From NCBI GenBank assembly GCA_013216005.1, contig JABSOJ010000013.1:1-43615 (forward strand): 43,615 nucleotides of DNA. The letters run 5' to 3'. Every line of letters begins with the position of its first letter. Positions within the stretch are counted from its first letter, which is position 1. This document shows, piece after piece, positions 10,397 to 43,496 of the stretch. Origin of the DNA: Alteromonadaceae bacterium. Its GTDB lineage: Bacteria; Pseudomonadota; Gammaproteobacteria; Enterobacterales; Alteromonadaceae. The notes beneath the pieces are model-generated. The model worked only from the letters and a program-made list of their open reading frames with translations. It did not search any database and was not told the origin of the DNA. The position numbers and the translations under genes were made by a program.

Positions 10397-11983
10397 TTAA
10401 AATATCCTATTTAATGGTGCCTGAACTAAATCGGGAAATAAAAAATAGCTGATGAAAACAGTCAATACACCTACAAGTAAAATGTTAGAGAATATAAATA
10501 AAATAGTTTTCCTCCTTTGCCAACGATGTAGACCTAAATTTTCATTGGCAGAGACTATGCCGAACACAGGAATACCCGTTGCCTTAGATACTTGGCTACC
10601 GGAAGTGACAACAGGAATTATTTGACTCATGCCTAAAGAAATGCCGACCCCCGCTCCGAAACCAACAATCAAAATGGCGATAAAGTATAATGTTCTTGGT
10701 GGGCCTGTGGGATGTGTTGCAGCCCGTGGAGGATCCATTACACGAAATTGTATGCTATCAGCGGTTTGATCTGCTTGTTGTGCAAGTTGAGCCGTTTCGT
10801 TTCGTATCAGTAACTGTTCGTATTTATCTTTTGTAATTATATAACCACGGTTTAATCCGGCTAATTCAGCTTCAATCTCGGGTAAAATGTGAATTTTACT
10901 TTTTAATTCTTTAACTCTGTTTTGATAGTTTTCGGCACGAATATTTAAGGAGGCAACCTGATTTTCTAATTGATTAACTTGTGTTTGAACTTCTTGCATT
11001 ACAGGGTTTTGATTTATAGGTGATGCAATGGATTGAGCATCATTAGTAGAAGCCAGATATTTTTCAATTTCCTGGGTACGTTGTTTATTTAAAGAGTCCA
11101 GCCGTTTATTTACCTCTCTAACATCGGGATGTTTGTCAGTATATTTTAATTCTAATGAATCTAAAATCATTTCAAGCTCAGTAATTCGCTTGTCATATGT
11201 GGTTTGAATGCTGTTATTACTGGTTATTTTATCGTTTTTATTGTTTGTTGAAATGGTATGTTTGGATAACTGTGCTTTAGCTGAATTCAGGCGTGTTTCA
11301 GTTTCCAGTAATTCCAGTTCTAGGTTTTCCAGTTGTTTGATTGATGTATTAAGTTGTGCGTAAAATCCACCCGACTGACTGGGCAACATTTCACTGTATT
11401 TTTGTTTAAAATCTGTTACACGAGATTCTGCTGCTGATAGTCGATCTTCATATTCACTTATTTGAGTACTAAGAAACTTTTGTGCGTTATCGGAATCATT
11501 TCGTGTTTCCCCTAAAGTATTCTCCATAAACACGGTTAGCGTAGATTGCACTATATTTTTAGCCATTTCAGGATCACGATCAGCAATCGCTAAAGTATAA
11601 ATATTTTCTCTGCCAGCAGTTGAAATTTTAATTCTGTTTTTTAAACTCCTTATTATTCCTTCATATTGTTCATTGTTACTGGCTTGGATATCAAGATCTG
11701 TCATTCTGGAAATACGTTCTAAATTTGGTCGACTTAATAAGGTTTTTATCATGAGACGTATTTGAATATCAGGCTTGGTTTCTACGGTCAGTCCTCGAAG
11801 TAATGGACGTAATAAGGATTGTGTATCTACATACACTTTAGCTTGAGACTGATATATATTGGGCATTTGCGCAACCATATACCAGCCAATAGGACAAATA
11901 ATCCACGTCGATATCATAATATATCGACGTTTGATCCAAATTCCTTTTAGGTAATCTATTATCTGTTCAAGTATTTCTTGCAT
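10397..11983 (-). CDS. XrtA system polysaccharide chain-length determinant (Wzz-type)
   Basis: Two terminal TM segments flanking long coiled coil; N-terminal Wzz motif IYQSQAKVYVDTQSLLRPLLRGL; Pro-rich PPRAATHPTGPPR before TM2. Confidence 0.9.
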   Translation of the reverse strand: MQEILEQIIDYLKGIWIKRRYIMISTWIICPIGWYMVAQMPNIYQSQAKVYVDTQSLLRPLLRGLTVETKPDIQIRLMIKTLLSRPNLERISRMTDLDIQASNNEQYEGIIRSLKNRIKISTAGRENIYTLAIADRDPEMAKNIVQSTLTVFMENTLGETRNDSDNAQKFLSTQISEYEDRLSAAESRVTDFKQKYSEMLPSQSGGFYAQLNTSIKQLENLELELLETETRLNSAKAQLSKHTISTNNKNDKITSNNSIQTTYDKRITELEMILDSLELKYTDKHPDVREVNKRLDSLNKQRTQEIEKYLASTNDAQSIASPINQNPVMQEVQTQVNQLENQVASLNIRAENYQNRVKELKSKIHILPEIEAELAGLNRGYIITKDKYEQLLIRNETAQLAQQADQTADSIQFRVMDPPRAATHPTGPPRTLYFIAILIVGFGAGVGISLGMSQIIPVVTSGSQVSKATGIPVFGIVSANENLGLHRWQRRKTILFIFSNILLVGVLTVFISYFLFPDLVQAPLNRIF

Positions 11984-12107
11984 TCACGACCTCTGTAACA
12001 GGCTGATAAGATATTATTATTGTAAAAATTATTTTTAGATCGAAGCTTGTTTCGAAACATTGATAAAAACACTAATATAATTGTCGATAAATTTTTTATT
12101 TATCAAC

Positions 12108-12743
12108 TTAAAACCACGCTTCTGGGATAATAATAATATCGCCGGGTAACATATCGACATTCGCACTTATTTCGCCATCTTTAATTAAGTCTTCGATATA
12201 TATTTCATACTGCTTTTGTTTGCCACTTTCAACTCGCACTATTACCGCATTGTTTCCATCGGCAAATTCAGTTAACCCGCCAACTCTTATCATTACATCA
12301 AGTAGGGTCATATTTTGAGTGTAATTAATCGCCATTGGTTGAGATGCTTCGCCTATCACGCGTATTTGTTCACTGAATGGACCAACAAAGTTATTCACAG
12401 TAACTGTTACCACTGGATCTTTCAGGTAAGTCCCTAAAATTTCTTCTACCGAACGAGCAAGTTCTGTGGGGGTTTTACCGGATACAGGAATATCTTCAAC
12501 AAGTGAAGTGGTGATCATTCCGTCGGGGCGTACTACAAATGAGCCTGAAACTTCTGCGTTTCGCCAAACAAATATATTAAGTACATCACCAGGACCAATA
12601 AGATATTTATATGAACTCGTATCAGTGGTATTTGATGCATGTATGGTTGCACTAGGCAGGGTGGGGCTACTACATCCTGTTATAAATTGTGTTAGCATTA
12701 ACAAGACTAGTATTGTTATTTTGTTGGTAAAATGTTTTTCCAT
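12108..12743 (-). CDS. XrtA system polysaccharide export lipoprotein (Wza-like)
   Basis: Lipobox FITGCSS; YLIGPGDVLNIFVWRNAEVSGSFVVRPDGMI and SLBB-like region. Confidence 0.9.
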   Translation of the reverse strand: MEKHFTNKITILVLLMLTQFITGCSSPTLPSATIHASNTTDTSSYKYLIGPGDVLNIFVWRNAEVSGSFVVRPDGMITTSLVEDIPVSGKTPTELARSVEEILGTYLKDPVVTVTVNNFVGPFSEQIRVIGEASQPMAINYTQNMTLLDVMIRVGGLTEFADGNNAVIVRVESGKQKQYEIYIEDLIKDGEISANVDMLPGDIIIIPEAWF

Positions 12744-13030
12744 GGTAATGACCTTTTTACAACTGAATTTTATAGTTATTCTAAGCTATCAGATTGTATG
12801 TGATTTTTATAGTTGTTGCACATTATTTATGTGGATTAATCCATGTTCTACGGGTTTAAAAGCTAGGCATAGCTTTACATTTAGTGGTTGATCGCTTCTA
12901 ATAGCTATTTCAATATGTAAAGAATGATTCTCATAAATATCTATCTTGTATGTACTTTGATAAAATAATAAAAATAATTAGTCTGTTACCACCCTATCCC
13001 AAGTGAACGCTAAAGGAATATTTACTATTT

Positions 13031-14434
13031 ATGTCTATCTTAAAATTTCGTGATCTATCATTAGGTAGTAAGTCTCTTGTCATTATAGAATTAATTTCCT
13101 TTGCGGGAGCTTTGTTCTTAGCTGTCTATATTAATACCTTATTTTCTTTTATTGAGCAAACACCGTTATCATCAAATATTCTTTTTATCTATGCTTTAAT
13201 ATTTGCATTGGCCGTGCAACTTTCATCACTTGCTTTAGGATTATATAACACTAAATTACGGGAAAATTTCCGCGGTGTTTTTCGTCGATTATTAATGTCG
13301 GTTGCCATTGGCTTTTTTATTATGGCATTGATAAATCCATTTTACGCAGAAGAATCTTTAGCGATTGAAATTTTGGCTGTGACTGCTGTTATTTATCTTA
13401 TTTTTATGAGCGGCTTTCGTTATTTCATTTTGCAAGTCGACTTTTTTGGATATAGTAAACGAACTGTCTTAGTTTTAGGATCGGGAGATCGTGCTTCAAT
13501 TATTGAAAAACGTATGCGCCGTGATGTTGATAGACAAGGTTTTCATTTGCATGGTTTTGTCGTCATGGCTGGCGATGCAGTCAACGGAATTGAAAGAGAA
13601 ACACGTATTACCCTAGATGGCTCTTTAGTTAATTATGCGTTAGAGCACAATATAGATGAAATAGTAGTTGCCAGTGATGAACGTCGAAATAATTTGCCTG
13701 TTGATGAATTGTTTGCATGTAAAATTCGCGGGATAGCAATTACTGAAATATTAGATTTTATTGAACGTGAAACAGCACAAATTGCCGTTAATTTAATCTA
13801 TCCGAGTTGGGTTATTTATTCAAATGGCTTTGTTTCATCTAATGATTTAAGAAATACGTTAGATTGGATCTTTAATGCGGTAATAGCGATATTGTTATTA
13901 GCCTTAACATGGCCAGTGATGTTGATTACGGTGATATTAATTAAAATTGAAGACGGTAAGTCAGCGCCTGTTTTTTATTTGCAAGAACGTGTTGGTTTAG
14001 ATGGTCAGGCATTTCAAATATATAAGTTTCGGAGTATGAAAATTGATGCCGAAAAAAATGGTGCACAAATGGCGTCTGAAAATGATAATAGAATTACGAA
14101 AATAGGTAACTTTTTACGGAAATATCGTATTGATGAGTTACCGCAAATTCTTAATGTATTGTTAGGCGAAATGGGTTTTGTTGGTCCACGTCCAGAAAGA
14201 CCTGAATTTGTTCAGCAATTAATAAAATCTATACCATACTATAATGAGCGTCATAATGTTAAACCAGGGTTAACAGGTTGGGCACAACTTAAATATCCTT
14301 ATGGCGCTACTCAGGAAGATTCTTTGGAAAAGCTCAAATACGATTTGTATTATATTAAACATCGTAGTTTTTTGTTGGATTTACTGATTTTAATACGTAC
14401 AGTTGAAATCGTTTTGTTTGGTAAAGGTAGATAA
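13031..14434 (+). CDS. TIGR03013-type XrtA/PEP-CTERM undecaprenyl-phosphate sugar transferase
   Basis: N-terminal TMs, CoA-binding-like domain and bacterial sugar transferase motifs (KFRSMKIDAEKNGAQMA, LPQILNVLLGEMGFVGPRPERPEF, PGLTGWAQ). Confidence 0.9.
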   Translation: MSILKFRDLSLGSKSLVIIELISFAGALFLAVYINTLFSFIEQTPLSSNILFIYALIFALAVQLSSLALGLYNTKLRENFRGVFRRLLMSVAIGFFIMALINPFYAEESLAIEILAVTAVIYLIFMSGFRYFILQVDFFGYSKRTVLVLGSGDRASIIEKRMRRDVDRQGFHLHGFVVMAGDAVNGIERETRITLDGSLVNYALEHNIDEIVVASDERRNNLPVDELFACKIRGIAITEILDFIERETAQIAVNLIYPSWVIYSNGFVSSNDLRNTLDWIFNAVIAILLLALTWPVMLITVILIKIEDGKSAPVFYLQERVGLDGQAFQIYKFRSMKIDAEKNGAQMASENDNRITKIGNFLRKYRIDELPQILNVLLGEMGFVGPRPERPEFVQQLIKSIPYYNERHNVKPGLTGWAQLKYPYGATQEDSLEKLKYDLYYIKHRSFLLDLLILIRTVEIVLFGKGR

Positions 14435-24569: not shown

Positions 24570-25994
24570 ATGAAAATAACAGATATTCGTTTTATTACTT
24601 TATTATCAATATTAGTGAGCATTTGGGCATACGTATTTAGTGATGCTCTTTTGTCAATGGAGGGCATTTGGCGACGTTCTGACACTTTTGCACATGGCTA
24701 TTTTATTTTCCCTATTAGTGTTTGGTTGGTATGGAGAGGTAGACAGACTTTAATTGCTAATAGCACCTCATTTTCCTGGTTAGCGTTGTTAAGTTTATCT
24801 GGGGCGTTAGCTGTCTGGTTATTTTCTTATGCGGCTGATATCAATATATTAGGGCAATTATCTGCTGTAGTTGCGTTAATTTCTCTTCTTTGGTTAATGA
24901 TTGGGAATCGATTGGCTTGGCATTATAAATTTCAGTTAGTCTTTTTATTGTTTGCAGTACCAATGGGGGAAAATTTAATCCCGTGGTTACAAGATGTAAC
25001 TGCTTGGTTTACGGTTACATTTTTGAAGTTACATGGTATTCCCGTTTTTCGGGATGGCTTGTATATTCAAGTCCCCAGTGGAATGTTTGAAGTTGCTGTT
25101 GCCTGTTCAGGTATACGCTATTTAATTGCTTCACTAGCGGTTGGAACCTTATATGCGTATTTAACTTACCAAAAAGGGTATAAGCAAATCGCATTTATTA
25201 TTTTTGCTGGTATTATACCAATACTAGCTAACGGGATAAGAGCATATCTTATTGTTATTATTGCTCATTATTCTGATATGGAATATGCTACAGGGGCTGA
25301 TCACCTTATTTATGGTTGGGTGTTTTTTGGTTTGGTCATCATGTTTATGTTCTGGATTGGCGGAAAGTTTGCGGACCCTGAACCAGAGATGGATAAAGCA
25401 GTCATCTACCCTCAACCTGCTTCAATTAATTCAATTCGATACTTGTTGGTATTAATTCCGTTTTTTATTGTGGTTTTATTATCTCGTAGCATTCCTGTTA
25501 TTGAACCGCCAAGTAGTGTTCAAACTGCTTTGAAAGGACAAGAAGTTAGCCATTCTGATTGGGGGATCTCTTTTAGTGATAGTTTAAATCAATCTCATAT
25601 TTTATCTGAAGAAGGGCTTGAAATTTACAAAGCAGTTTATGCTAACAAACAGTCTAAAGGCGAGTTAATCTCTTCAATTAATTATTTGCATGAACATGAA
25701 AAATGGACGGTAATAAATCAAGAAACCTTTGAATTTAACAAGGGTAGTGTGAGCATGATTCAAATGCGGAATATCGTCGGTAAAACAAGAAGTTACATTT
25801 ATCAATATAGGGCGGGTAGTTATCGCTCATCGTCTAAAAATATTATTAAATTAGTACAAGCATGGAATAGTTTATCGAGACAATCCGACTATAGTGAGAT
25901 TGTTGCCATTTCAATAGAAAATAATGATAGCTTTGAAGTAAGCAAAAGAATTTTAAAGCAAGCTTTGCTCACCATGAATAAAATTGAACAATAA
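24570..25994 (+). CDS. xrtA: Exosortase A with fused EpsI-like C-terminal domain
   Basis: Catalytic-type Cys (VACSGIRYLIASL), Arg (NGIRAYLIV) and His (GADHLIYGWVFFG) in multi-TM region; C-terminal periplasmic EpsI-like domain. Confidence 0.93.
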   Translation: MKITDIRFITLLSILVSIWAYVFSDALLSMEGIWRRSDTFAHGYFIFPISVWLVWRGRQTLIANSTSFSWLALLSLSGALAVWLFSYAADINILGQLSAVVALISLLWLMIGNRLAWHYKFQLVFLLFAVPMGENLIPWLQDVTAWFTVTFLKLHGIPVFRDGLYIQVPSGMFEVAVACSGIRYLIASLAVGTLYAYLTYQKGYKQIAFIIFAGIIPILANGIRAYLIVIIAHYSDMEYATGADHLIYGWVFFGLVIMFMFWIGGKFADPEPEMDKAVIYPQPASINSIRYLLVLIPFFIVVLLSRSIPVIEPPSSVQTALKGQEVSHSDWGISFSDSLNQSHILSEEGLEIYKAVYANKQSKGELISSINYLHEHEKWTVINQETFEFNKGSVSMIQMRNIVGKTRSYIYQYRAGSYRSSSKNIIKLVQAWNSLSRQSDYSEIVAISIENNDSFEVSKRILKQALLTMNKIEQ

Positions 25995-31783: not shown

Positions 31784-33079
31784 ATGCGTGACGTTGCAGT
31801 AATGATGCTGTTTGTCTATTTAATAATATATACATTCCGCAGACCTTTTATAGGTGTTGGAGCGTGGGCCTGGATATCTTTAGCTTACCCTGCTGGTTGG
31901 GCGTGGGGTTTTTCTACTAATTTCAGAATGAATTTTACTGTAGCTATTTTAACATTCATTGGATATTTTGCTTTAAAGAACAAACCTAAAGTCGAATTCG
32001 ACAGTCTTATTTTCTTGGTGATTGTATTTTGGGTTTTAGCTTTTATTTCCTCATCAGTAACTGAATCATTTTTAGTAGACTATGCTTCGGTTAAGTTTGA
32101 AGAGTTTACGAAGGTACTCATGCTTTTTGCTGCAATCATTTTAATTTTCAGCAAAAAAATTCATGTTGATGTGTTTATTTGGTCTGTAGTGTTAGCGATA
32201 TCTTCTTATGCCGCCATGGAATCTGTTAAATATATAGTATCTGGTGGCGGACACAGAATAGCCGGATTTGAAGGTCATGTGCTGGGTGATCGAAATGATC
32301 TGGCGGTTGCAATTAATATGACTATTCCTTTAATTTTATATTTGGCGAGTGAAACTAAACATAGTAAATTGAGAATGGGATTGTACGTGCTTGTTGGAAT
32401 GAATATACTTGCTATTATAGGGACATTTTCAAGAGGTGGGTTTGTTGGATTGGTTTTATTGGGGATGTACTTTTACTGGCAATCAAAGCGTAAGGCTTTA
32501 TGGTCTATAGTCATTGCCGTTTGTATAGGTATTTCTACACAAATGGGTTCGAGTGAATGGAGTAATCGAATGGATACTGTTTCTAGCGCATCATCAGCGG
32601 ACAGTTCTTTTATTGGTAGAATTTGGGCGTGGAAAATTTCGGTGAAAATTGCGAATGATAATGTGTTTGGCAATAGTTTTTTTGCTACGCAAGATCCCTA
32701 CGCCTGGCATAGATATCGGCAGTCTATTGATAATTTCGGACCTGTTTATACCCCTCCTATTCCAGAAGGTCAATTCCCTAAAGCAGCGCATAGTTTATAT
32801 TTTCAAGTGTTAGGTGACTTGGGTTATATTGGGCTTTTTGTCTATTTAATGTTACTTTCTTCTTTGTTTTTTAAAATAAAAAAATTGGGGGAACGTGCTA
32901 AAGCCATGGAGTTAAAATGGGCAATTAATCTAACTACAATGCTTTCAGTGTCAATCGTAGGTTATTGTATTACTGGCGCAAATGTAAGTATGGCTTATTT
33001 TGATTTGTTATTTGGGGTCATTGGAATTGTTTATGTTCTGGATAAACGCTTGTTGGTGAATAAAGAGACGCATCAATAA
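31784..33079 (+). CDS. Putative O-glycosylation ligase / Wzy-like, exosortase A system-associated (TIGR03097-like)
   Basis: Multi-TM protein, GHVLGDRNDLAVAINM and FSRGGFVGLVLLG polymerase/ligase-type motifs; RBS AAGGAAGG. Confidence 0.85.
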   Translation: MRDVAVMMLFVYLIIYTFRRPFIGVGAWAWISLAYPAGWAWGFSTNFRMNFTVAILTFIGYFALKNKPKVEFDSLIFLVIVFWVLAFISSSVTESFLVDYASVKFEEFTKVLMLFAAIILIFSKKIHVDVFIWSVVLAISSYAAMESVKYIVSGGGHRIAGFEGHVLGDRNDLAVAINMTIPLILYLASETKHSKLRMGLYVLVGMNILAIIGTFSRGGFVGLVLLGMYFYWQSKRKALWSIVIAVCIGISTQMGSSEWSNRMDTVSSASSADSSFIGRIWAWKISVKIANDNVFGNSFFATQDPYAWHRYRQSIDNFGPVYTPPIPEGQFPKAAHSLYFQVLGDLGYIGLFVYLMLLSSLFFKIKKLGERAKAMELKWAINLTTMLSVSIVGYCITGANVSMAYFDLLFGVIGIVYVLDKRLLVNKETHQ

Positions 33080-34219: not shown

Positions 34220-34375
34220 ATTATTTTATTCAGGATAAAGAGCAGTTGTTAAGCTGTGATGTAAGTATGTATACGAGTTAGTCGCACAAAATAATTGGTT
34301 TGTGTATTTTATTTAACCTAGTCTTATATACGGTGTAAATTATGTGTGGTGCACTGTATGGAGTCCAAATATATA

Positions 34376-35359
34376 ATGAAAAAGCTTCTTATAACTGGTG
34401 GCATTGAAAAAAAGAATCCACAGGAAGAATGGTCTGGATTTAAATCAGGAATAGCCCTGGAGCTAGATCTTGCTAGCTTAGAGTGTAAACCAGTATTGGA
34501 ATATTACACACCTGAAGAGTTTAGGCCACCTGAGCCAGATTGTTCTATTTTATTCAAATCTGGGGAGGTTCATGGCGACAAAGTTGTTATGACGACACAA
34601 ACTGAAGTTTTGATTTATCAATTGCCTGATTATCAATTAATTAAAAGAGTATCATTATCTTGTTTTAATGATATCCATCATGCGCGGTTAACAGATGATA
34701 ACTCTCTTCTGGTGTGTGTAACAGGGCTAGATAGTGTCTTTGAAATAAGTTTGGAAGGAAATGTGATCAATGAATGGTCATCAATTGATGAAGATATATG
34801 GCAGCGGTTTGAGTTGGGTAAAGATTATCGTCAAATATTAACAACGAAACCTCATTCGGCTCACCCTAATTTTTGCTTTGAATATAAAGGTGAAAAATTT
34901 GTTACTAGATTTATGCAAAAAGATGCAATTTCTCTTACTAGTAATAAACAATTTAAAATAGATGTTGGAGGCCCTCATGACGGTTATGTTTTGGGTGAAA
35001 ATGTTTACTTTACGACAGTAAATGGGTTTATCGTCGGTTTTAATTTGAATTCTTGCAAGCGAATTTTTATAAAAGACCTTAATGAAATGAATGAAAATAA
35101 AATGCGTAATCTTGGTTGGTGTAGAAGTTTGCTCATGGTTAACGAGCATGAAGCAATTGTAGGTTTTAGCAGAATGCGCACAAGTAAGTTTTCTGATTAT
35201 CTAAGTTGGGTAAAAGAAAAATCAGGCGTAGGAACCACGAATGATTTTCCAACCAGACTTATTAAGTATAATTTTAAGCAAGATGAAATAGAGTGGACCA
35301 TCAATTTAGAAAAATATGACCTGAATGCGGTATTTTCAGTTTTGGCATTAAGTGAGTAA
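34376..35359 (+). CDS. Beta-propeller-like protein of unknown function
   Basis: Repeating short beta-strand blocks (KVVMTTQTEVLIYQLPDYQLIKRVSL, SLLVCVTGLDSVFEISLEGNVINEW); no enzyme motif recognised. Confidence 0.55.
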   Translation: MKKLLITGGIEKKNPQEEWSGFKSGIALELDLASLECKPVLEYYTPEEFRPPEPDCSILFKSGEVHGDKVVMTTQTEVLIYQLPDYQLIKRVSLSCFNDIHHARLTDDNSLLVCVTGLDSVFEISLEGNVINEWSSIDEDIWQRFELGKDYRQILTTKPHSAHPNFCFEYKGEKFVTRFMQKDAISLTSNKQFKIDVGGPHDGYVLGENVYFTTVNGFIVGFNLNSCKRIFIKDLNEMNENKMRNLGWCRSLLMVNEHEAIVGFSRMRTSKFSDYLSWVKEKSGVGTTNDFPTRLIKYNFKQDEIEWTINLEKYDLNAVFSVLALSE

Positions 35360-35367
35360 AAGTTAAT

Positions 35368-36801
35368 ATGACAATTGTGAAGATGCAAGTGATCAGTGGT
35401 ATTAAATGGTCAATGTTTGCTAAAATCATATCGCAGATATTTTCGTGGATCGTTACTTTTGTCGTGATCCGAATACTAATGCCTGAAGACTACGGTATTA
35501 TTGAGTTGGCAACAGCGATGGTTTCACTTGGTTTGGTCTTGGGGATGAGTGGTTTTTCAGATGTAATAGTTCAGCGAAAAGACAAAGATCCACAGTTATA
35601 TGCACAAGTTTTTACCTTAGCTTTGTCATTAAATTTTTTGTTGTTTTTAATTTTATTTCTCAGTGCAGATTCTATAGCCGATTGGTATAACGCCCCAAAC
35701 CTTGGCCTTGTTATAAAATTTTTGAGTGTTAATCTCTTGTTTGTTTCATTGAAAGTTGTCCCTGCGGGGATTTTGAAAAGAGAGATGGATTTTAAAAAGT
35801 TATCGTTAATTCAATTAACCGTAGGATTGTTAAGTTCAGCACTTACGTTGACGCTGGCCCTTTTAGGGTATTCCTATTGGTCTATTGCTATTGGTAGTCT
35901 GGCTGCGACCATAATGTCTGCAATATTATTGAATTTTATCACACGTGCACCAATGCGATTAACTACCTCATTTAAATCATTTGGCCCTTCTTTTCACTTT
36001 GGTGTTTTTACGGTAATAAATCAATTGCTTACTTTTCTTTTTTTAAAAGTAGACTCTCTTATTATCGGTAAAGTACTTGGTATTAGTTCTTTAGGTTTTT
36101 ATTCAGCAGGTAGTCAGCTTGCTAATTTACCCTTAGAGAAAGTTGCTCAAACCCTGAATGAAGTTAGCTTTGCTGGTTATGCTAAAGTAAAGGAAGACAA
36201 AGCGGGTGTGTCTTATTATTTCTTACAGAGTAGTCGTCTTGTTTCTTTAATGGTTTTTCCTGTATTTTGGGGGATGGCATCAATTGCGGATCCGTTAGTT
36301 GATCTGTTTTTAGGCGAAAAATGGTTAAGCGCAGCACCAATTTTTCAAATTCTTGCCTTAGTTATGCCATTTAGAATATATCAACTTGTCATTCAATCGG
36401 CGATAGCTGGCATTGGTTTTCCAAAATATAATTCAAAAAATCTTCTTATCTTGTGTGTAGTAATTCCAATTTCTGTGCTTTCGGGCTTGCCTTGGGGAAT
36501 TCAAGGGGCTGCAATTGGTTGGGCATTAGGGTATCTCTTGTTTTTTCTCTGGATGATTTTCCGCTCGCTTTCTTTTTTAAATGTAATGTCTTTGGACTTC
36601 ATTAAAACATTGGCCACACCTATGATGGCGGGGTTAATAATGTTGTTAATAAATTTTCAACTTGATTATTTTATCGGTAGTTACGATGCCTGGTTGAAGT
36701 TGATCATTCTGATTGGTAGTGGTGCTGTAACTTATATAAGTTTAGTTTTTTTCGTTGAGAAACAAAGGTTGATTCTGTTGAAAAATATCATATTCAAATA
36801 G
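35368..36801 (+). CDS. Wzx-type lipopolysaccharide/EPS flippase
   Basis: Multi-TM; SGIKWSMFAKIISQIFSWIVTFVVIRILMPEDYGIIELATAMV typical of polysaccharide exporters. Confidence 0.9.
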   Translation: MTIVKMQVISGIKWSMFAKIISQIFSWIVTFVVIRILMPEDYGIIELATAMVSLGLVLGMSGFSDVIVQRKDKDPQLYAQVFTLALSLNFLLFLILFLSADSIADWYNAPNLGLVIKFLSVNLLFVSLKVVPAGILKREMDFKKLSLIQLTVGLLSSALTLTLALLGYSYWSIAIGSLAATIMSAILLNFITRAPMRLTTSFKSFGPSFHFGVFTVINQLLTFLFLKVDSLIIGKVLGISSLGFYSAGSQLANLPLEKVAQTLNEVSFAGYAKVKEDKAGVSYYFLQSSRLVSLMVFPVFWGMASIADPLVDLFLGEKWLSAAPIFQILALVMPFRIYQLVIQSAIAGIGFPKYNSKNLLILCVVIPISVLSGLPWGIQGAAIGWALGYLLFFLWMIFRSLSFLNVMSLDFIKTLATPMMAGLIMLLINFQLDYFIGSYDAWLKLIILIGSGAVTYISLVFFVEKQRLILLKNIIFK

Positions 36802-36811
36802 AGGGAAAAAA

Positions 36812-39800
36812 ATGAGCGATGAGTTAATGTTGGGGCAGACCAAAAAGGTTGATTTTGCCTGTTTTTTTATTAGCTCTCTCATATTTCTCGCTGCTGTTTT
36901 TAATATCACTTCAAGTCCCATGAGTGTTTGGTGGCTTATTCCCCTTTGTTTGTATTTTTTATTGGTGGTTTATCGACCTTACTGTGTATTTGTCATATTA
37001 CCAATAAGTATCGTGCTAATTGATAGTAAAAGTTGGATTGGCTTTAGTGTCTTTAATGAGTTTGATAGTTTAATTTGGTTAACCGTGGCGGCGGGAATTC
37101 TTCATTTCAAAAATAAAATTCAGTTTTTAGTTAATCATTCACCAATATTTCTTGTTATTTTTTTAGCCTTGGTTTTTATAAATGTGGGTCTGCAAGGTGG
37201 TTTTGGGTCATTTGTTACCGAGACTAATCCTTATTATGATAATAGTTATAGCGTTTTTATTGCGAAAGGCATTGTTTATGGGGCGCTTTTAGCTATTTTA
37301 TTTGTCACCGATTATTTTTATTATCCAGAAGAAACCAAGATGTCCTGGTTTTACGGAGCCGCAACCAGTGCGTTTTTATTATTTATAATTGTGCTTTGGG
37401 AAAGAGGTACATTATTAGCCTTATTTGAAGGAAATACATGGTGGCACGGTGTTAGTTCATTATTGAATTTCAGTGGTTCTTACAGGGTAACGGGATTTTT
37501 TGCTGAAATGCATACGGGAGGGGAAGCGTTTGATGGTATTGTCCTTTTCTTATTAGCCGTAAATTTGTTTGCTTTTTTAAATGCCAGGCAAATGTGGCAA
37601 AAAAACGTTTATCTTTTGGCGTGTTTTGCTGTCACGTACTGTGTTTTGGTTGGTTATACAAGAGCGACTTATCTTGCGGCTTTTGTATTGGTCGGCTCTT
37701 TAGTTGTCTTTTGGCAATTGAAAGTAGTTCCCCGACGGCAACGTTTTACGCTAGCTGAAGTGATACAGAGTTCATGTCTTTGTATTTGCTCTGTACTGAT
37801 ATTAAAATATAGCGGATTTGCAAGCTTAACCCTTCATTTAGTTTTATTAATCGTTTTTCCCTTGTTAATGTTTATATCAAAAAATTTAAACTTGAATAGG
37901 CTTAGTTCAAACTTCCTTTATACTTTAATTTGGTTCATTGTACTTCTATTTTCTTATGTGCAGCAATCAGAAAGTAAATGGTTTGATAATACTTTCTCCT
38001 TTCATAATAGGTTGTTCATTTTATCCTTTATATTTTTTGGCATATTACTGTTTCTTCATAAAAATTTAACCGCAAAGCTCTCTGCTACACTGTTGCGAAA
38101 TATAGTCATGGTTGTTATTTCATCTGTCTTGTCCGTTGGATCTGTTGGTTATCAAATAAATGCTAGATTAGACCATGTAGAAAGAGATTTTATGACCAGA
38201 GTGTTCCATTGGCAAAGCGTTATTCAATCAGGCGATTGGTTGACATCACAGTGGTTGTTTGGGCATGGTGTGGGTAGTTTTCCTAAGAATTATGCATTAA
38301 CTTTTCCTGAAGAAATAAAGAAAATAGGTAGCTTTGAAATAAAAGATAGTAAGTTAAATATAGGTATTGGAGAAGATTTAACTATAGGGCAAAGAATTAA
38401 GGTTGAATCTGGAAAACGTTATTTGTTGACTGGTCATTTCAGTGCTGAAGAGCAGGCAAAATTGCTGGTAGGGATATGCTATAGAAATATTCTCTACCCG
38501 ACAAATTTTGCACCTAATTGCAATTATCGACCAATTGCTTCAAACACTTTAAGTCATAAGTTTTCTGTTGATCTTTATTCACCTGAGTATAAAACATCAG
38601 GGAACTCTCTTTTGCAGTGGCCAGCTTTCTTCGTTGTAAAAAACATTTCAGATCATCAAATTATTTCTATTAATTGGTTAAAATTAGTTGGTAGTGATAA
38701 AACTACTGATCTGTTAAAAAATGGCGATTTTTCAAATAACCTTGAAAATTGGTATTTTTATAATGATTATAATCATCTCCCTTGGCATATCAAAAACATA
38801 TATTTGAGCTTTGTTTATCAATTGGGATTGATTGGCGTACTACTTTTATTCATATTGATTTTTCAAGCTTTGTGGAAACGTCATTCAGATCCCTTCATTG
38901 CTTTTTATCAGTATACCTTGGTTTCTTTATTGTTGGCGTTATGCGCTTTTGGAATGTTTGGCGATCCGTTTGATTCCCCTAAGGCTAGTACATTATTATC
39001 ATTACACTTATTTTCTTGTGTATTATTTACTGTAATTTATAAGCCCCAAAAACGGCTATTTAACGTATCAAAAGTTCAAGTTGTCACATTTTTTAGTGTG
39101 ATAGTTATTCTTCTGGGTAGTTTACATTTTGGTCTTAAATACTATTTGCAAATGAGTTACTTAGAATTTGTGAGTCAAAAACAAAGAGTAAAAGATGGTA
39201 GTGCATATGTTTCGACAAGGCGAGATGAATTATCTATTGAGGATTGGAATGAATATGAAGTTGGTCCTAAATTACAGCCGTTAAGTGCTCGTCATTCATA
39301 TTCAAAAAAATTATATAAAGTAAGTAATGTCAAAGCGTTTTTATCAAGGATCCGTGCGGCAAGACCCGGAGATTCAATTGAGCTTCAACCGGGGTACTAC
39401 ACTATTAATGGACACTCTATTGCTTTGCAAACAGCAGGCACCGAATTATTACCTATTGAAATTACTGCAAGTCAAGCTGGTAAAGTAATAATAGAGTTTA
39501 ACTTAATAGAAGGCTTTCATATTAGTCAGCCTTATTGGAATATCAATAATTTAATTATTGTAGGGATATGTAAGGTAGATAAACTATGTGAGCATGCTTT
39601 TCACATTGTTGGGAAAGGGCATAATACAAAAATAATTAACAATATAATTAAAAATTTCAACTCGCCATTTAAAATTAACCAAAAGGATGGGGATTTTCCG
39701 GATAAAGGCATAATTAAACAGAATGCGATTTATAATAATGATGCCAGAGATACAGCTACGCCTGTTACTTTTATTGATTTAGTCTCCGCTAGTGGTTGGA

Positions 39801-40477
39801 GTGTGGAAAATAATTTTGTAGCTGATTTTGCTAAGAAGGGAGGCGATCACATAAGTTACGGCATGTTTTTTAAAGGGGCCGGAGAACGAAATATTTTTAA
39901 ACGTAATCTTGTTGTTTGTGAATGGAGGCATAAAGGCGGATTTCGTATTGGAACATCGATAGGTGGTGGTGGTACGGGGGCAAAGTTTTGTCGCGATTTA
40001 AAATGTGATGTAGAGCAGAGTAATAGTAGTATTATTAATAATGTTGTAATGCATTGTCCTAATGATGTTGGCTTGTATGTCAATAAAGGTAAAAATACTT
40101 TGGTGGCGCAGAATATTTTTTATAGAACTCGTGGTATTGATGTCCGTTTTAAAGAATCGGATGCTCTTTTAAGTAATAACATTATAGACGGTAGAGTGTG
40201 GACTCGTGATGGTGGGCAAACCCAATTGATTAATAATCAATATAGTCAATTGAACGCATTCTTGGGTTTATCTTTGGTTGAGGAGCTTTATCAAGCGCCA
40301 TGGAAAGGTGACTTCAGGGTATTGGATATGGAAAGTTTAATGATGTCTGAACCTACTAACAAAGAGAGTAATGATTTTTGTCAAGTTCAGCCAATGAATC
40401 GCAGATCTATAGGGCCGTTTGAAATATTTATTGACCCTCCTTGCCAACCAAATTTTAAATTTATCCGACAAGATTAA
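36812..40477 (+). CDS. O-antigen ligase/polymerase-like membrane protein with periplasmic jelly-roll-like insertion and C-terminal parallel beta-helix domain
   Basis: 1221-aa ORF: ~12 TMs with VGYTRATYLAAFVLV and FGHGVGSFPKNY; insertion with LLKNGDFSNNLENWYFYND; C-terminal part ARPGDSIELQPGYYTINGHSIAL and repeated NNII/NNLI beta-helix rungs. Confidence 0.8.
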   Translation: MSDELMLGQTKKVDFACFFISSLIFLAAVFNITSSPMSVWWLIPLCLYFLLVVYRPYCVFVILPISIVLIDSKSWIGFSVFNEFDSLIWLTVAAGILHFKNKIQFLVNHSPIFLVIFLALVFINVGLQGGFGSFVTETNPYYDNSYSVFIAKGIVYGALLAILFVTDYFYYPEETKMSWFYGAATSAFLLFIIVLWERGTLLALFEGNTWWHGVSSLLNFSGSYRVTGFFAEMHTGGEAFDGIVLFLLAVNLFAFLNARQMWQKNVYLLACFAVTYCVLVGYTRATYLAAFVLVGSLVVFWQLKVVPRRQRFTLAEVIQSSCLCICSVLILKYSGFASLTLHLVLLIVFPLLMFISKNLNLNRLSSNFLYTLIWFIVLLFSYVQQSESKWFDNTFSFHNRLFILSFIFFGILLFLHKNLTAKLSATLLRNIVMVVISSVLSVGSVGYQINARLDHVERDFMTRVFHWQSVIQSGDWLTSQWLFGHGVGSFPKNYALTFPEEIKKIGSFEIKDSKLNIGIGEDLTIGQRIKVESGKRYLLTGHFSAEEQAKLLVGICYRNILYPTNFAPNCNYRPIASNTLSHKFSVDLYSPEYKTSGNSLLQWPAFFVVKNISDHQIISINWLKLVGSDKTTDLLKNGDFSNNLENWYFYNDYNHLPWHIKNIYLSFVYQLGLIGVLLLFILIFQALWKRHSDPFIAFYQYTLVSLLLALCAFGMFGDPFDSPKASTLLSLHLFSCVLFTVIYKPQKRLFNVSKVQVVTFFSVIVILLGSLHFGLKYYLQMSYLEFVSQKQRVKDGSAYVSTRRDELSIEDWNEYEVGPKLQPLSARHSYSKKLYKVSNVKAFLSRIRAARPGDSIELQPGYYTINGHSIALQTAGTELLPIEITASQAGKVIIEFNLIEGFHISQPYWNINNLIIVGICKVDKLCEHAFHIVGKGHNTKIINNIIKNFNSPFKINQKDGDFPDKGIIKQNAIYNNDARDTATPVTFIDLVSASGWSVENNFVADFAKKGGDHISYGMFFKGAGERNIFKRNLVVCEWRHKGGFRIGTSIGGGGTGAKFCRDLKCDVEQSNSSIINNVVMHCPNDVGLYVNKGKNTLVAQNIFYRTRGIDVRFKESDALLSNNIIDGRVWTRDGGQTQLINNQYSQLNAFLGLSLVEELYQAPWKGDFRVLDMESLMMSEPTNKESNDFCQVQPMNRRSIGPFEIFIDPPCQPNFKFIRQD

Positions 40478-40769: not shown

Positions 40770-43496
40770 TTACTCATTGTCTTGTTTCCTCGGCAAAATC
40801 GCCCATTTGGGATTGTCATCGTATATAGTTTTAATAGCGATGTTTTGTTTAACATACTGCCATAATTCGTGATGGTTTTTAAATCCTTCAAGGTAGGCTG
40901 CTGCGGCCATAGTTATGCTATGGTAACCATGTTCAGGATCATTATTAGTTCTTATAAAATTTTCTACTTCATTTATATATTCAGAGGTATATTGTGAATA
41001 TATATCATGCCATGTTGTGAACCATTCATTGTTTTGATCTAAGGTTGGTACTATGTAGGCACAGATCATAGCATGGGGTAGGCTTGGATCAGAAAATGGT
41101 TCTAATAATTGACTTCCGGCAAATATTAATAAACTATCTGTGTTATAGCCAAGTTCTTTTGCTCTTCCAAGAGCAATAATTACAAAATTTTGCATCCACG
41201 GAGCCAGAGCCCGGTTAACATTATCAGTATTTACTCTATCAGGGTGTACATAACTGGGACTGTGTGTACCTTCATCCCATTGCCCTATTTTAGACGGCAT
41301 TCTTGCCGTTTTAAATCCATTCTTAACTAAATCTTTTTTAACAAAACTATGCAGGTCACTATGTAAAGTGTTTGATAAAGGCAAATTCATTAAGCCTTCC
41401 CACATAGAAATAGCATTTTGATTAAGCAAATGAAAATATGATTTTTCCGGGCTGCTATCAGGCAAAATATCATAGGTGTGTACTCTGGTTCTAAAAGCCC
41501 AAGCTTGTCCTCTAACTTCTCCTGAATATAATCCCCCTTCTGAGCCGGTAGGTCCTCGACCTAATGTTGAAGAATATCCTACGGCATTATTATCACCGCT
41601 AACAAAAGCAGCTGAAAATAACATTTGTTCTAAGTAAAAATAATCTCCTGTTAGTAAGTATTGTGGGCTGGCCAACTCAGGATGATGGGCTTTATCTGCT
41701 ACCCAGTTTGTTTTTATTAAGGGGAAGAGTGGATTGATTTTATCTTCGGTTTTAACTTCATACCAATCTGGTCTGGCTGTCCAGTGAGTAGGTCGTGCAA
41801 GTGGAGCCATTGAGATTATTTTTCCAAGCGCCTCAACTGTGCCATTCATGTCAAATTTTAAGCCTGCTCTTCCTTCCCGTAAGTGAATTGGCCAGGCACT
41901 AGCCAATTCACTTTGCTTTAACGCAATTTCCTGGTGTCGCCAATCTCCTGTGTATAACCATTTTATGGTCCAGGTAGGGTATATACCTATATCAGGTCTA
42001 CCACCTCCCACTCCCATTGCTGGTTGCCACCAACCTTTTTGATATATGTCTTTATCTTTTGTCTGCCAGATATTCCAGTCATTAGTAACTATTTGTTCAC
42101 TTATGACTTTTGTGGTATCAAAATTGGGTAATGATTTCGATTTTATTAAATAGTCAATATTGTGATTAATTGATAGCGTTTGTAATTGTTCTCCAGACCA
42201 GACTTTTTTAGTCCATCGGGTCATTGCCTGGTGAGGTACATTCTCTTGTTGATAAAAGGGGTTGTCATTAAAGTCGATATATAAACTCAGGTGATAACTT
42301 TGATCTTGCAGTGCTTCCGTATTCATTGCTTCTGCGATATAACGAACTGAATATTTTTTTATTCCTGGCCAGAAAGTGACGTGGAAAATGGGACGAATAG
42401 AACGATGTTCATCGGCACCAATATCATAAAGTCTGTCAATTGAATGGTCTTTTATTATTATTGTTGTGGCAATAGGGCCTGTTAGCCAGTATTCAAAATC
42501 GTTATTTTCAAGCATTTGTCTTGCCAGAACTGTTTTCTCTTCAGGAAAGTAAAATTTCATTGTGGCATCAAAGAAGTAATCAGTTGACAACATCTGCTGC
42601 TTAGTTAAAGGTTCATTATTATTTTGTGTTGTATTGACAAAATTAACTGTTTTTGAGCTGTTTGCGGGCAACTCTGCAAGAATGAAGCTGATAATCGCGT
42701 GTTTTACACTGCCATTATGGTATCGTTGTTTGACATCTGCTTGTGTGTTTATTTTGATGCCATCAATCATAACTTGTGGAAAATTTTGAATGTCATCTTC
42801 CACAAAAGAACGGCCAAACTGAACGGGGTAATCAATTTGTTTCTTGCCATGAGGTTCGGTTATTAAAATAGTATTCGATTTTTTATTGAAAGGAACCGTG
42901 GAAAATGTGGCGTGGAGACTTTTTGATCCGTTCATCGTTATAGAGCATGATGATGTTCCTCTGCAGCCATCACTCCAGCCGTTGAAGACAAAACCATCAT
43001 TTGCTAAAGCCTTTAATTCGATAGTATCTCCTTCTGTGTAGGATCGCTGGCAATCTGGTGTACAATCGAGGATTTGGTCATCAATTTTAACTAGGCCCCC
43101 ATTGTCAATTTGTAAACTCAACACATATGTAGTCGGTAGAACTTCGAAATTAGCCGTAACATTCTTATTTTGATTCATGGTTAATTGGCATTTTGTCATA
43201 CCTTGGCAAGCACCAGACCAGCCAGTAAAAATCGGGTTTTCATCGGGTTCAGCTATAAGCTCAACTGTTGTATCTGCAAGGATGTCAACGGTACAATTTT
43301 TTTTACAGGCTTCATTTATTGGTAAAATACTGACAGTACCTAATGGAGCTGGGCCAGAGAATTCTATCGTTAAATTGTAGTTAACAGAAGTGTCAGGTGG
43401 CACTGTTTGGTTATTAGCTTCCCCGGAACCGCAAGCAGATGAAGAAAGAAATAAGGTAATAAAGAAAACCTTTTTGAAGGTAGTGATTGCTTTCAT
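40770..43496 (-). CDS. Secreted lipoprotein with two InlB B-repeat-like domains and a large putative polysaccharide-active region
   Basis: Lipobox FLSSSACGSG; two repeats (FTGWSGACQGMTKCQLTMNQNKNVTANFEV, FNGWSDGCRGTSSCSITMNGSKSLHATFS); downstream domain resembles RIFT-barrel/(alpha/alpha) polysaccharide lyase-like proteins. Confidence 0.7.
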   Translation of the reverse strand: MKAITTFKKVFFITLFLSSSACGSGEANNQTVPPDTSVNYNLTIEFSGPAPLGTVSILPINEACKKNCTVDILADTTVELIAEPDENPIFTGWSGACQGMTKCQLTMNQNKNVTANFEVLPTTYVLSLQIDNGGLVKIDDQILDCTPDCQRSYTEGDTIELKALANDGFVFNGWSDGCRGTSSCSITMNGSKSLHATFSTVPFNKKSNTILITEPHGKKQIDYPVQFGRSFVEDDIQNFPQVMIDGIKINTQADVKQRYHNGSVKHAIISFILAELPANSSKTVNFVNTTQNNNEPLTKQQMLSTDYFFDATMKFYFPEEKTVLARQMLENNDFEYWLTGPIATTIIIKDHSIDRLYDIGADEHRSIRPIFHVTFWPGIKKYSVRYIAEAMNTEALQDQSYHLSLYIDFNDNPFYQQENVPHQAMTRWTKKVWSGEQLQTLSINHNIDYLIKSKSLPNFDTTKVISEQIVTNDWNIWQTKDKDIYQKGWWQPAMGVGGGRPDIGIYPTWTIKWLYTGDWRHQEIALKQSELASAWPIHLREGRAGLKFDMNGTVEALGKIISMAPLARPTHWTARPDWYEVKTEDKINPLFPLIKTNWVADKAHHPELASPQYLLTGDYFYLEQMLFSAAFVSGDNNAVGYSSTLGRGPTGSEGGLYSGEVRGQAWAFRTRVHTYDILPDSSPEKSYFHLLNQNAISMWEGLMNLPLSNTLHSDLHSFVKKDLVKNGFKTARMPSKIGQWDEGTHSPSYVHPDRVNTDNVNRALAPWMQNFVIIALGRAKELGYNTDSLLIFAGSQLLEPFSDPSLPHAMICAYIVPTLDQNNEWFTTWHDIYSQYTSEYINEVENFIRTNNDPEHGYHSITMAAAAYLEGFKNHHELWQYVKQNIAIKTIYDDNPKWAILPRKQDNE

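Follow-up and report, generated by a model that had tools for sequence, protein, structure and literature searches.

A putative ligase/Wzy-like transferase fused to a PL6-like beta-helix in an XrtA/PEP-CTERM exopolysaccharide cluster of an Alteromonadaceae bacterium

The fused frame and its domains

Contig JABSOJ010000013.1 of an Alteromonadaceae bacterium (assembly GCA_013216005.1), of which positions 1 to 43,615 were analyzed and are referred to here as the window, includes at 36812-40477 on the + strand a single open frame that extends from an ATG at 36812 to a stop codon ending at 40477. The 1221-amino-acid (aa) product, with no internal stops, can be described as a ligase/Wzy-like membrane half joined by an extra transmembrane (TM) segment to a right-handed beta-helix that resembles PL6 lyases and chondroitinase B. 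A domain similar to a carbohydrate-binding module (CBM) is inserted in the membrane half. The features of the frame are as follows.

36812..40477, + strand: fused coding sequence, 1221 aa; ligase/Wzy-like membrane half, TM anchor and PL6-like beta-helix; fusion also found in Paraglaciecola arctica (L056)
36812..39061, + strand: ligase/Wzy-like half, aa 1-750, polytopic, GT121/PF04932-like (AlphaFold2 model, PF04932 matches in relatives, invariant Arg/His motifs, hhalign)
37661..37663, + strand: R284 of a TRATY motif, invariant; by motif, the counterpart of SRG in the PEP_O_lig family
38165..38200, + strand: invariant pair R452...R463, located before HW and GxGxGSF; by analogy with O-Lig Arg191/Arg265 (PMC10920833), these Arg residues may bind the diphosphate
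38327..38767, + strand: aa 506-652, a CBM4-like jelly roll inserted in the catalytic loop on the periplasmic side (AlphaFold2, Foldseek, Pfam in relatives)
38774..38788, + strand: two invariant residues of HLPWHIKN, H655 and H659, which may activate the acceptor; WH659 is aligned with WH336 of the O-ligase family
39080..39136, + strand: extra TM, aa 757-775, which joins the halves and corresponds to the N-terminal membrane anchor of stand-alone relatives
39308..40243, + strand: periplasmic right-handed beta-helix, PL6/chondroitinase B-like, aa 833-1144
40064..40147, + strand: region matching the PL6 active site (D1085, G1087, K1092, R1112), with the Lys in register with the PL6 base and the calcium ligands not conserved

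The source genome is a draft of 801 contigs, in which two genes could have been joined by an assembly or sequencing artefact. However, a genome-contig scan showed that an independent genome, that of P. arctica BSs20135, carries the identical architecture in a protein of 1271 aa that is 38% identical to that of the window. No frame has an ATG, GTG or TTG in the interval 39019-39080, so that a separate second gene would have nowhere to start before the anchor TM; the other frames near the junction hold stops, and the third-position GC content is continuous across the fusion (0.29 and 0.26). The P. arctica fusion, the missing start codon and the stops in the other frames led us to discard the artefact, which we regard as scarcely credible. 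An earlier sequence-only reading of this DNA had pointed to a frameshift or assembly fusion as a danger, which the P. arctica fusion, the absent start codon and the continuous third-position GC make unlikely, and to homologs encoded as two genes with the fusion due to sequencing error. The halves are indeed separate in most relatives, but the sequencing-error origin did not hold.

The AlphaFold2 (AF2) model of aa 1-754 is polytopic, with a mean predicted local distance difference test score (pLDDT) of 84.5 and a predicted template modeling score (pTM) of 0.86, and shows the arrangement expected of the GT121/PF04932 fold, a periplasmic loop domain (446-660) near the C-terminus of the ligase half followed by three TM helices. 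PF04932 was weakly matched by six of 35 ligase-family relatives, and L096 scored above the Wzy_C cut-off (33.0 vs 31.7 bits). An hhalign comparison of the ligase half with the XrtA O-ligase family gave an E value of 5.7e-5. The PF04932 kinship of the window protein would therefore be an indirect one, drawn through its relatives. Residues R284, R452, R463, H655 and H659 are invariant in the ligase family, with H659 placed on the O-ligase His by hhalign. The GT121 mechanism involves two Arg and one His, while polymerases of the clan have Asp or Glu instead of the His (PMC10920833). By this analogy the conserved His makes the ligase half lean, not decisively, to ligase over polymerase.

The sole beta-rich domain of the model, aa 508-651 (about 38333-38764), lies between GxGxGSF and HLPWHIKN, which are the flanks of the O-ligase catalytic loop. 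Its Foldseek neighbors are, weakly, the jelly rolls of CBM4, CBM16 and CBM61 (E 6e-3 to 6e-2), and Pfam CBM_4_9 gave a weak match in 3 of the 35 relatives and none in the window protein.

The ligase half is followed by a positively charged cytoplasmic linker (YKPQKRLFNVSK) and then by the extra TM, an order that places the beta-helix in the periplasm. AF2 modeled aa 833-1144 as a right-handed beta-helix with pLDDT mostly 85-96, the final ~50 residues of the protein being modeled without confidence. Kinship with PL6/chondroitinase B was found by both sequence profile and fold: Pfam Chondroitinas_B scores 26 bits (cut-off, 24), a PDB search with the beta-helix profile retrieves PL6 lyases (E 6e-16), and the top Foldseek matches are PL6 lyases (E 2e-8) and chondroitinase B. 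The PL6 asparagine ladder is present. With K249/R270 of BcelPL6 as the reference for the catalytic Lys and Arg, K1092 is in register with the PL6 base, as counted from the Asn of the ladder, and 9 of 11 close relatives have it.

These results confirm the single protein with ligase-like, CBM-like and beta-helix regions that the sequence-only reading had described, each region lying where it had been placed. The assignment of the N-terminal ~750 aa to a ligase or polymerase is supported by the polytopic model, the invariant Arg and His residues and Pfam matches that come from the relatives. A soluble insertion at ~38320-38760 with a jelly-roll segment was borne out by the AF2 strands at 508-651 and the weak Foldseek matches, and the lyase-like beta-helix of ~390 aa after the last TM agrees with AF2, Pfam and Foldseek except for its ~50 C-terminal residues.

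The exopolysaccharide cluster and the occurrence of the fusion

The fused frame closes a complete XrtA/PEP-CTERM exopolysaccharide (EPS) cluster that includes a separate O-ligase. Products scoring over the NCBI cut-offs are XrtA, stp2, the amidotransferase, PEP_O_lig_1, PrsK, PEP_resp_reg, the ATPase, the outer-membrane protein, the chain-length determinant and EpsB_2. The cluster also holds GDP-mannose genes (ManC, PMM) and a kinase/isomerase/guanylyltransferase set, the last member of which best matches the GDP-D-glycero-D-manno-heptose protein HddC, below the cut-off of that model.

10397..14434, both strands: XrtA chain-length determinant (- strand) and EpsB_2 sugar-phosphate transferase (+ strand) of the EPS cluster
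24570..25994, + strand: exosortase A (XrtA) of the EPS cluster
31784..33079, + strand: separate XrtA-associated O-glycosylation ligase (TIGR03097, PF04932)
35368..36801, + strand: Wzx/MOP-type flippase directly upstream of the fusion, 53% identical to the flippase preceding the stand-alone beta-helix gene in G067

The cluster of one other genome, G067, is syntenic gene for gene and includes XrtA, the separate O-ligase, the flippase (53% identical), the beta-helix (42%) and an InlB-like protein; the ligase half is missing both from this cluster and from the rest of the G067 genome. As a consequence, the ligase half can be considered an optional addition at this locus, and the housekeeping polymerase or ligase of the cluster would be another protein, presumably the product of 31784-33079. 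The latter, PEP_O_lig_1, is O-ligase-like and encoded in the same cluster as the fusion, but unlike the fused half it is a 431-aa protein with no insert and no appended domain, and it is retained in the syntenic cluster (L138) without the fused ligase half.

In a sample of 399 Alteromonadaceae genomes, 97 include this beta-helix, and a frame of fused length is present in only two of these, that of the window and G1023 (open frame of 1272, probably P. arctica). The fusion was consequently rejected as a general architecture of the Alteromonadaceae. The beta-helix tree joins the window and P. arctica proteins (support 96); the ligase tree does not decide between one origin and two for these fusions (approximately unbiased test, p 0.15).

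The source genome encodes UDP-sugar dehydrogenases, and in both Thalassotalea (L002) and G032 the lyase-like gene is followed by a gene of this type. These genes are consistent with uronate substrates, the presence of PF03721 in the genome showing just that uronate precursors are possible.

Several other proteins of this genome deserve mention. Beside the fusion, 40770-43496 (- strand) codes for a 908-aa protein with divergent InlB B-repeats, which may be part of the system because its relatives in G067 (56% identity) and G046 (41%) are also encoded close to the beta-helix. The 337-aa protein encoded at 34346-35359, kept with 62% identity in the syntenic G067 cluster, has no Pfam, NCBIfam or PADLOC family and looks like a soluble repeat (propeller-like) protein. 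Three further Wzy_C proteins are encoded outside the window (contigs C444, C33 and C27); a search of the genome with PF04932 at E 1e-3 did not pick up the fused ligase half. PADLOC gave no match.

Lyase-like partners of the ligase family

A total of 77 ligase-family loci were scanned with profiles of three lyase-like types. The partner is fused in 4 of them, lies within 90 nucleotides in 13 and within 2 kb in 3 more; L123 is the one other locus with matches, at a greater distance. Loci that share descent are not independent, and the partner hidden Markov models were built from partners in these same loci, so the counts are descriptive and do not amount to a test of the pattern. Beyond the profile counts, the gene immediately upstream in L078 and L081 looks beta-helix-like, an assignment made largely by visual inspection.

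The PL6-like beta-helix is the partner in the window, P. arctica, L067, Hahella and L087. A second beta-helix type, found in Thalassotalea, Colwellia, Motiliproteus and Accumulibacter, matches a PL6 protein in the PDB at E 1.6e-5, an assignment that is not firm. The third type is heparinase II-like, separate in Halieaceae, Bowmanella and Lacimicrobium and fused in Thiorhodococcus, Allochromatium and Thiocystis as follows.

L079:9734-14860, L095:9599-14341 and L100:6510-11345: ligase plus heparinase II-like fusions of purple sulfur bacteria, 1580-1710 aa

The assignment of the fused Chromatiaceae domain to the heparinase II homologs is firm (PDB 3e7j, E 2e-18; NCBIfam HepB, E 6e-23). A Halieaceae metagenome-assembled genome includes a TM-anchored homolog of this domain (45-46% identical) as a separate gene 48 nucleotides downstream of the ligase. 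Parsimony on the ligase tree requires at least 7 changes of partner type and at least 3 changes of fusion state, and close ligases can have different partners, as is the case for the window and P. arctica compared with Thalassotalea and Colwellia. The recurrent pairing and fusion with unrelated lyase-like types suggests that chain making and trimming are coupled.

Alternatively, the fusion could be functionally neutral: adjacent operon genes could have been joined by loss of a stop codon, with the products keeping separate periplasmic jobs, AlgL-like polymer clearance and ligation. The halves are separate in most relatives, where the genes often abut or overlap (L073, L067), and only two Alteromonadaceae genomes have the fusion. 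Yet fusion arose at least 2 times with unrelated partners (P. arctica and the window; Chromatiaceae) and the anchor TM was retained, which keeps the domain at the membrane, and we consider a neutral fusion very unlikely.

Other arrangements were found in this ligase family. Open reading frames of 1100 or more aa detected in a class-level search were rejected as further fusions, the extra part being an N-terminal VanZ domain. Insert-bearing ligases with such a VanZ-like domain instead, of ~1100-1170 aa, occur in many other Gammaproteobacteria and in beta-proteobacteria (L033-L055, L093, L104, L106, L107, L116 and L128). Porticoccus, Halieaceae and Methylococcaceae loci in which a lyase partner was not detected have a gene for a periplasmic trypsin-like protease just upstream of the ligase (L058, L061, L071, L077, L082 and L094; Trypsin_2 was confirmed in L061, the others being assigned by sequence likeness). 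In Bowmanella pacifica (L066:12105-13775) an MBOAT-like (AlgI-type) gene, judged from its N-terminal sequence alone, overlaps the end of the ligase gene; its product could be an acylation partner replacing the downstream lyase.

A proposed two-headed enzyme and its known counterparts

The fused protein can be interpreted as a two-headed EPS enzyme of the XrtA/PEP-CTERM cluster, an auxiliary ligase or polymerase that carries its own chain-trimming enzyme; we give this interpretation an even chance. Observed are a domain layout present in two genomes, its folds and motifs, the surrounding cluster and the recurrent pairing; we infer both activities, a shared substrate and the purpose of trimming. 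The membrane half would be a Wzy/WaaL-type (GT-CB) transferase that takes an undecaprenyl-diphosphate-linked glycan at the periplasmic face, with the conserved Arg residues binding the diphosphate and His655/His659 activating the acceptor, and would pass the glycan to a growing chain or final acceptor. The CBM-like insert in the catalytic loop may grip the chain. The beta-helix, kept beside the transferase by the extra TM, would act in a lyase-like manner on the same chain, most likely by cutting it, and this cutting would set the chain length or clear stalled chains.

Several results weigh against this interpretation. Pfam, including Wzy_C, gave no match to the ligase half, which falls short of the PF04932 gathering score; a sequence search of the PDB, in which WaaL was sought, gave none either, and WaaL is absent among the 50 best Foldseek matches of the ligase-half model, a list dominated by the jelly roll. 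In the beta-helix, R1112 (present in 9 of 10 close relatives) is one residue out of register with the PL6 catalytic Arg and the PL6 calcium Glu/Glu pair is not kept, D1085 and G1087 being found there instead. Because the calcium site is not conserved we call the domain PL6-like rather than a member of PL6. In 95 of the 97 Alteromonadaceae genomes that have it, the beta-helix lies outside a fused-length frame, and the ligase half was absent from all 8 genomes checked among those with an unfused beta-helix. The pairing is thus not obligatory for the beta-helix, most relatives of which occur without a ligase half, and the ligase half was rejected as a requirement for it.

The incomplete PL6 catalytic set, together with the glycan-binding-like domain already held by the ligase loop, would also fit a beta-helix that is a non-catalytic scaffold guiding or measuring the chain. 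This we regard as unlikely, since many charged and aromatic residues are invariant in the beta-helix family and the partners seen in other lineages are members of lyase families. A tethered epimerase of the AlgG/AlgE type, acting on uronic acids of the emerging chain, is more doubtful still: the fold search also returned AlgE4/AlgE6 A-modules (E 4e-5), epimerases share the fold, the PL6 calcium pair is missing, and the strongly conserved H928, K954, R979, Y1016 and K1021 could make a different active site, but PL6 lyases and chondroitinase B rank well ahead in the profile and fold matches, and the fused partner of Chromatiaceae is a heparinase II homolog, a lyase fold. We know of no epimerase with the heparinase II fold. 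As for a coupling of synthesis to glycan recognition and trimming, proposed in the sequence-only reading, the heparinase II fusions and adjoining lyase-like genes lend it comparative support, but the fusion is rare and not general.

Compared with known systems, the two-headed enzyme would be closest in its membrane half to WaaL (GT121/PF04932 Wzy_C), which is likewise polytopic, has a large loop on the periplasmic side ahead of its final TMs, carries GxGxG(S/T)F and WH...GxxG, and shows a pattern of two Arg and a His to which the invariant residues of the window protein may correspond (PMC10920833). The window protein differs from WaaL in its lack of a Pfam match, in additional TM segments amounting to ~110 aa (aa ~310-430), in the ~150-aa CBM-like insert, and in the TM and beta-helix added at the C-terminus. 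The joining of an O-ligase to another carbohydrate-active module has a precedent in WadA of Brucella and Mesorhizobium, a bimodular O-antigen ligase composed of GT121 and GT25 (PMC10920833); the WadA module is a sugar-adding glycosyltransferase, whereas that of the window is a periplasmic lyase-like beta-helix. The PL6/chondroitinase B proteins (PF14592; AlyGC, BcelPL6, Pedsa3807) share with the latter the right-handed beta-helix, a significant profile match, the Asn ladder and the register of Lys1092; the window domain differs in the missing calcium Glu pair, the Arg one residue off, the membrane tether and the fusion to a transferase. RbmB, the Vibrio polysaccharide lyase, is a beta-helix lyase whose gene lies with the EPS genes of the bacterium that makes it (PMC11637428) and is a fold match of the window beta-helix (9ozl, E 2e-4). 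Unlike the window protein, RbmB is separate, has a signal peptide, is implicated in biofilm dispersal and is not joined to a polymerase or ligase. No description of a ligase/polymerase-lyase fusion was found in the open-access literature searched.

In Wzx/Wzy-type systems the control of EPS length and the clearance of stalled chains are largely attributed to co-polymerases and free periplasmic lyases. Tentatively, and at somewhat less than an even chance, the family could be a general module for making and cutting, in which a CBM-insert O-ligase/Wzy-like protein works with an exchangeable tethered lyase. The lyase (PL6-like, other beta-helix type or heparinase II) would be swapped like a cassette to suit the polymer and sometimes fused, and cleavage beside the transferase, rather than a chain-length regulator alone, would set the length or release of the EPS. 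If this is true, a covalent transferase-lyase pair with recurring unrelated partners would represent a direct coupling of synthesis and cleavage, testable in a single protein, in XrtA systems that are relevant to floc and biofilm formation.

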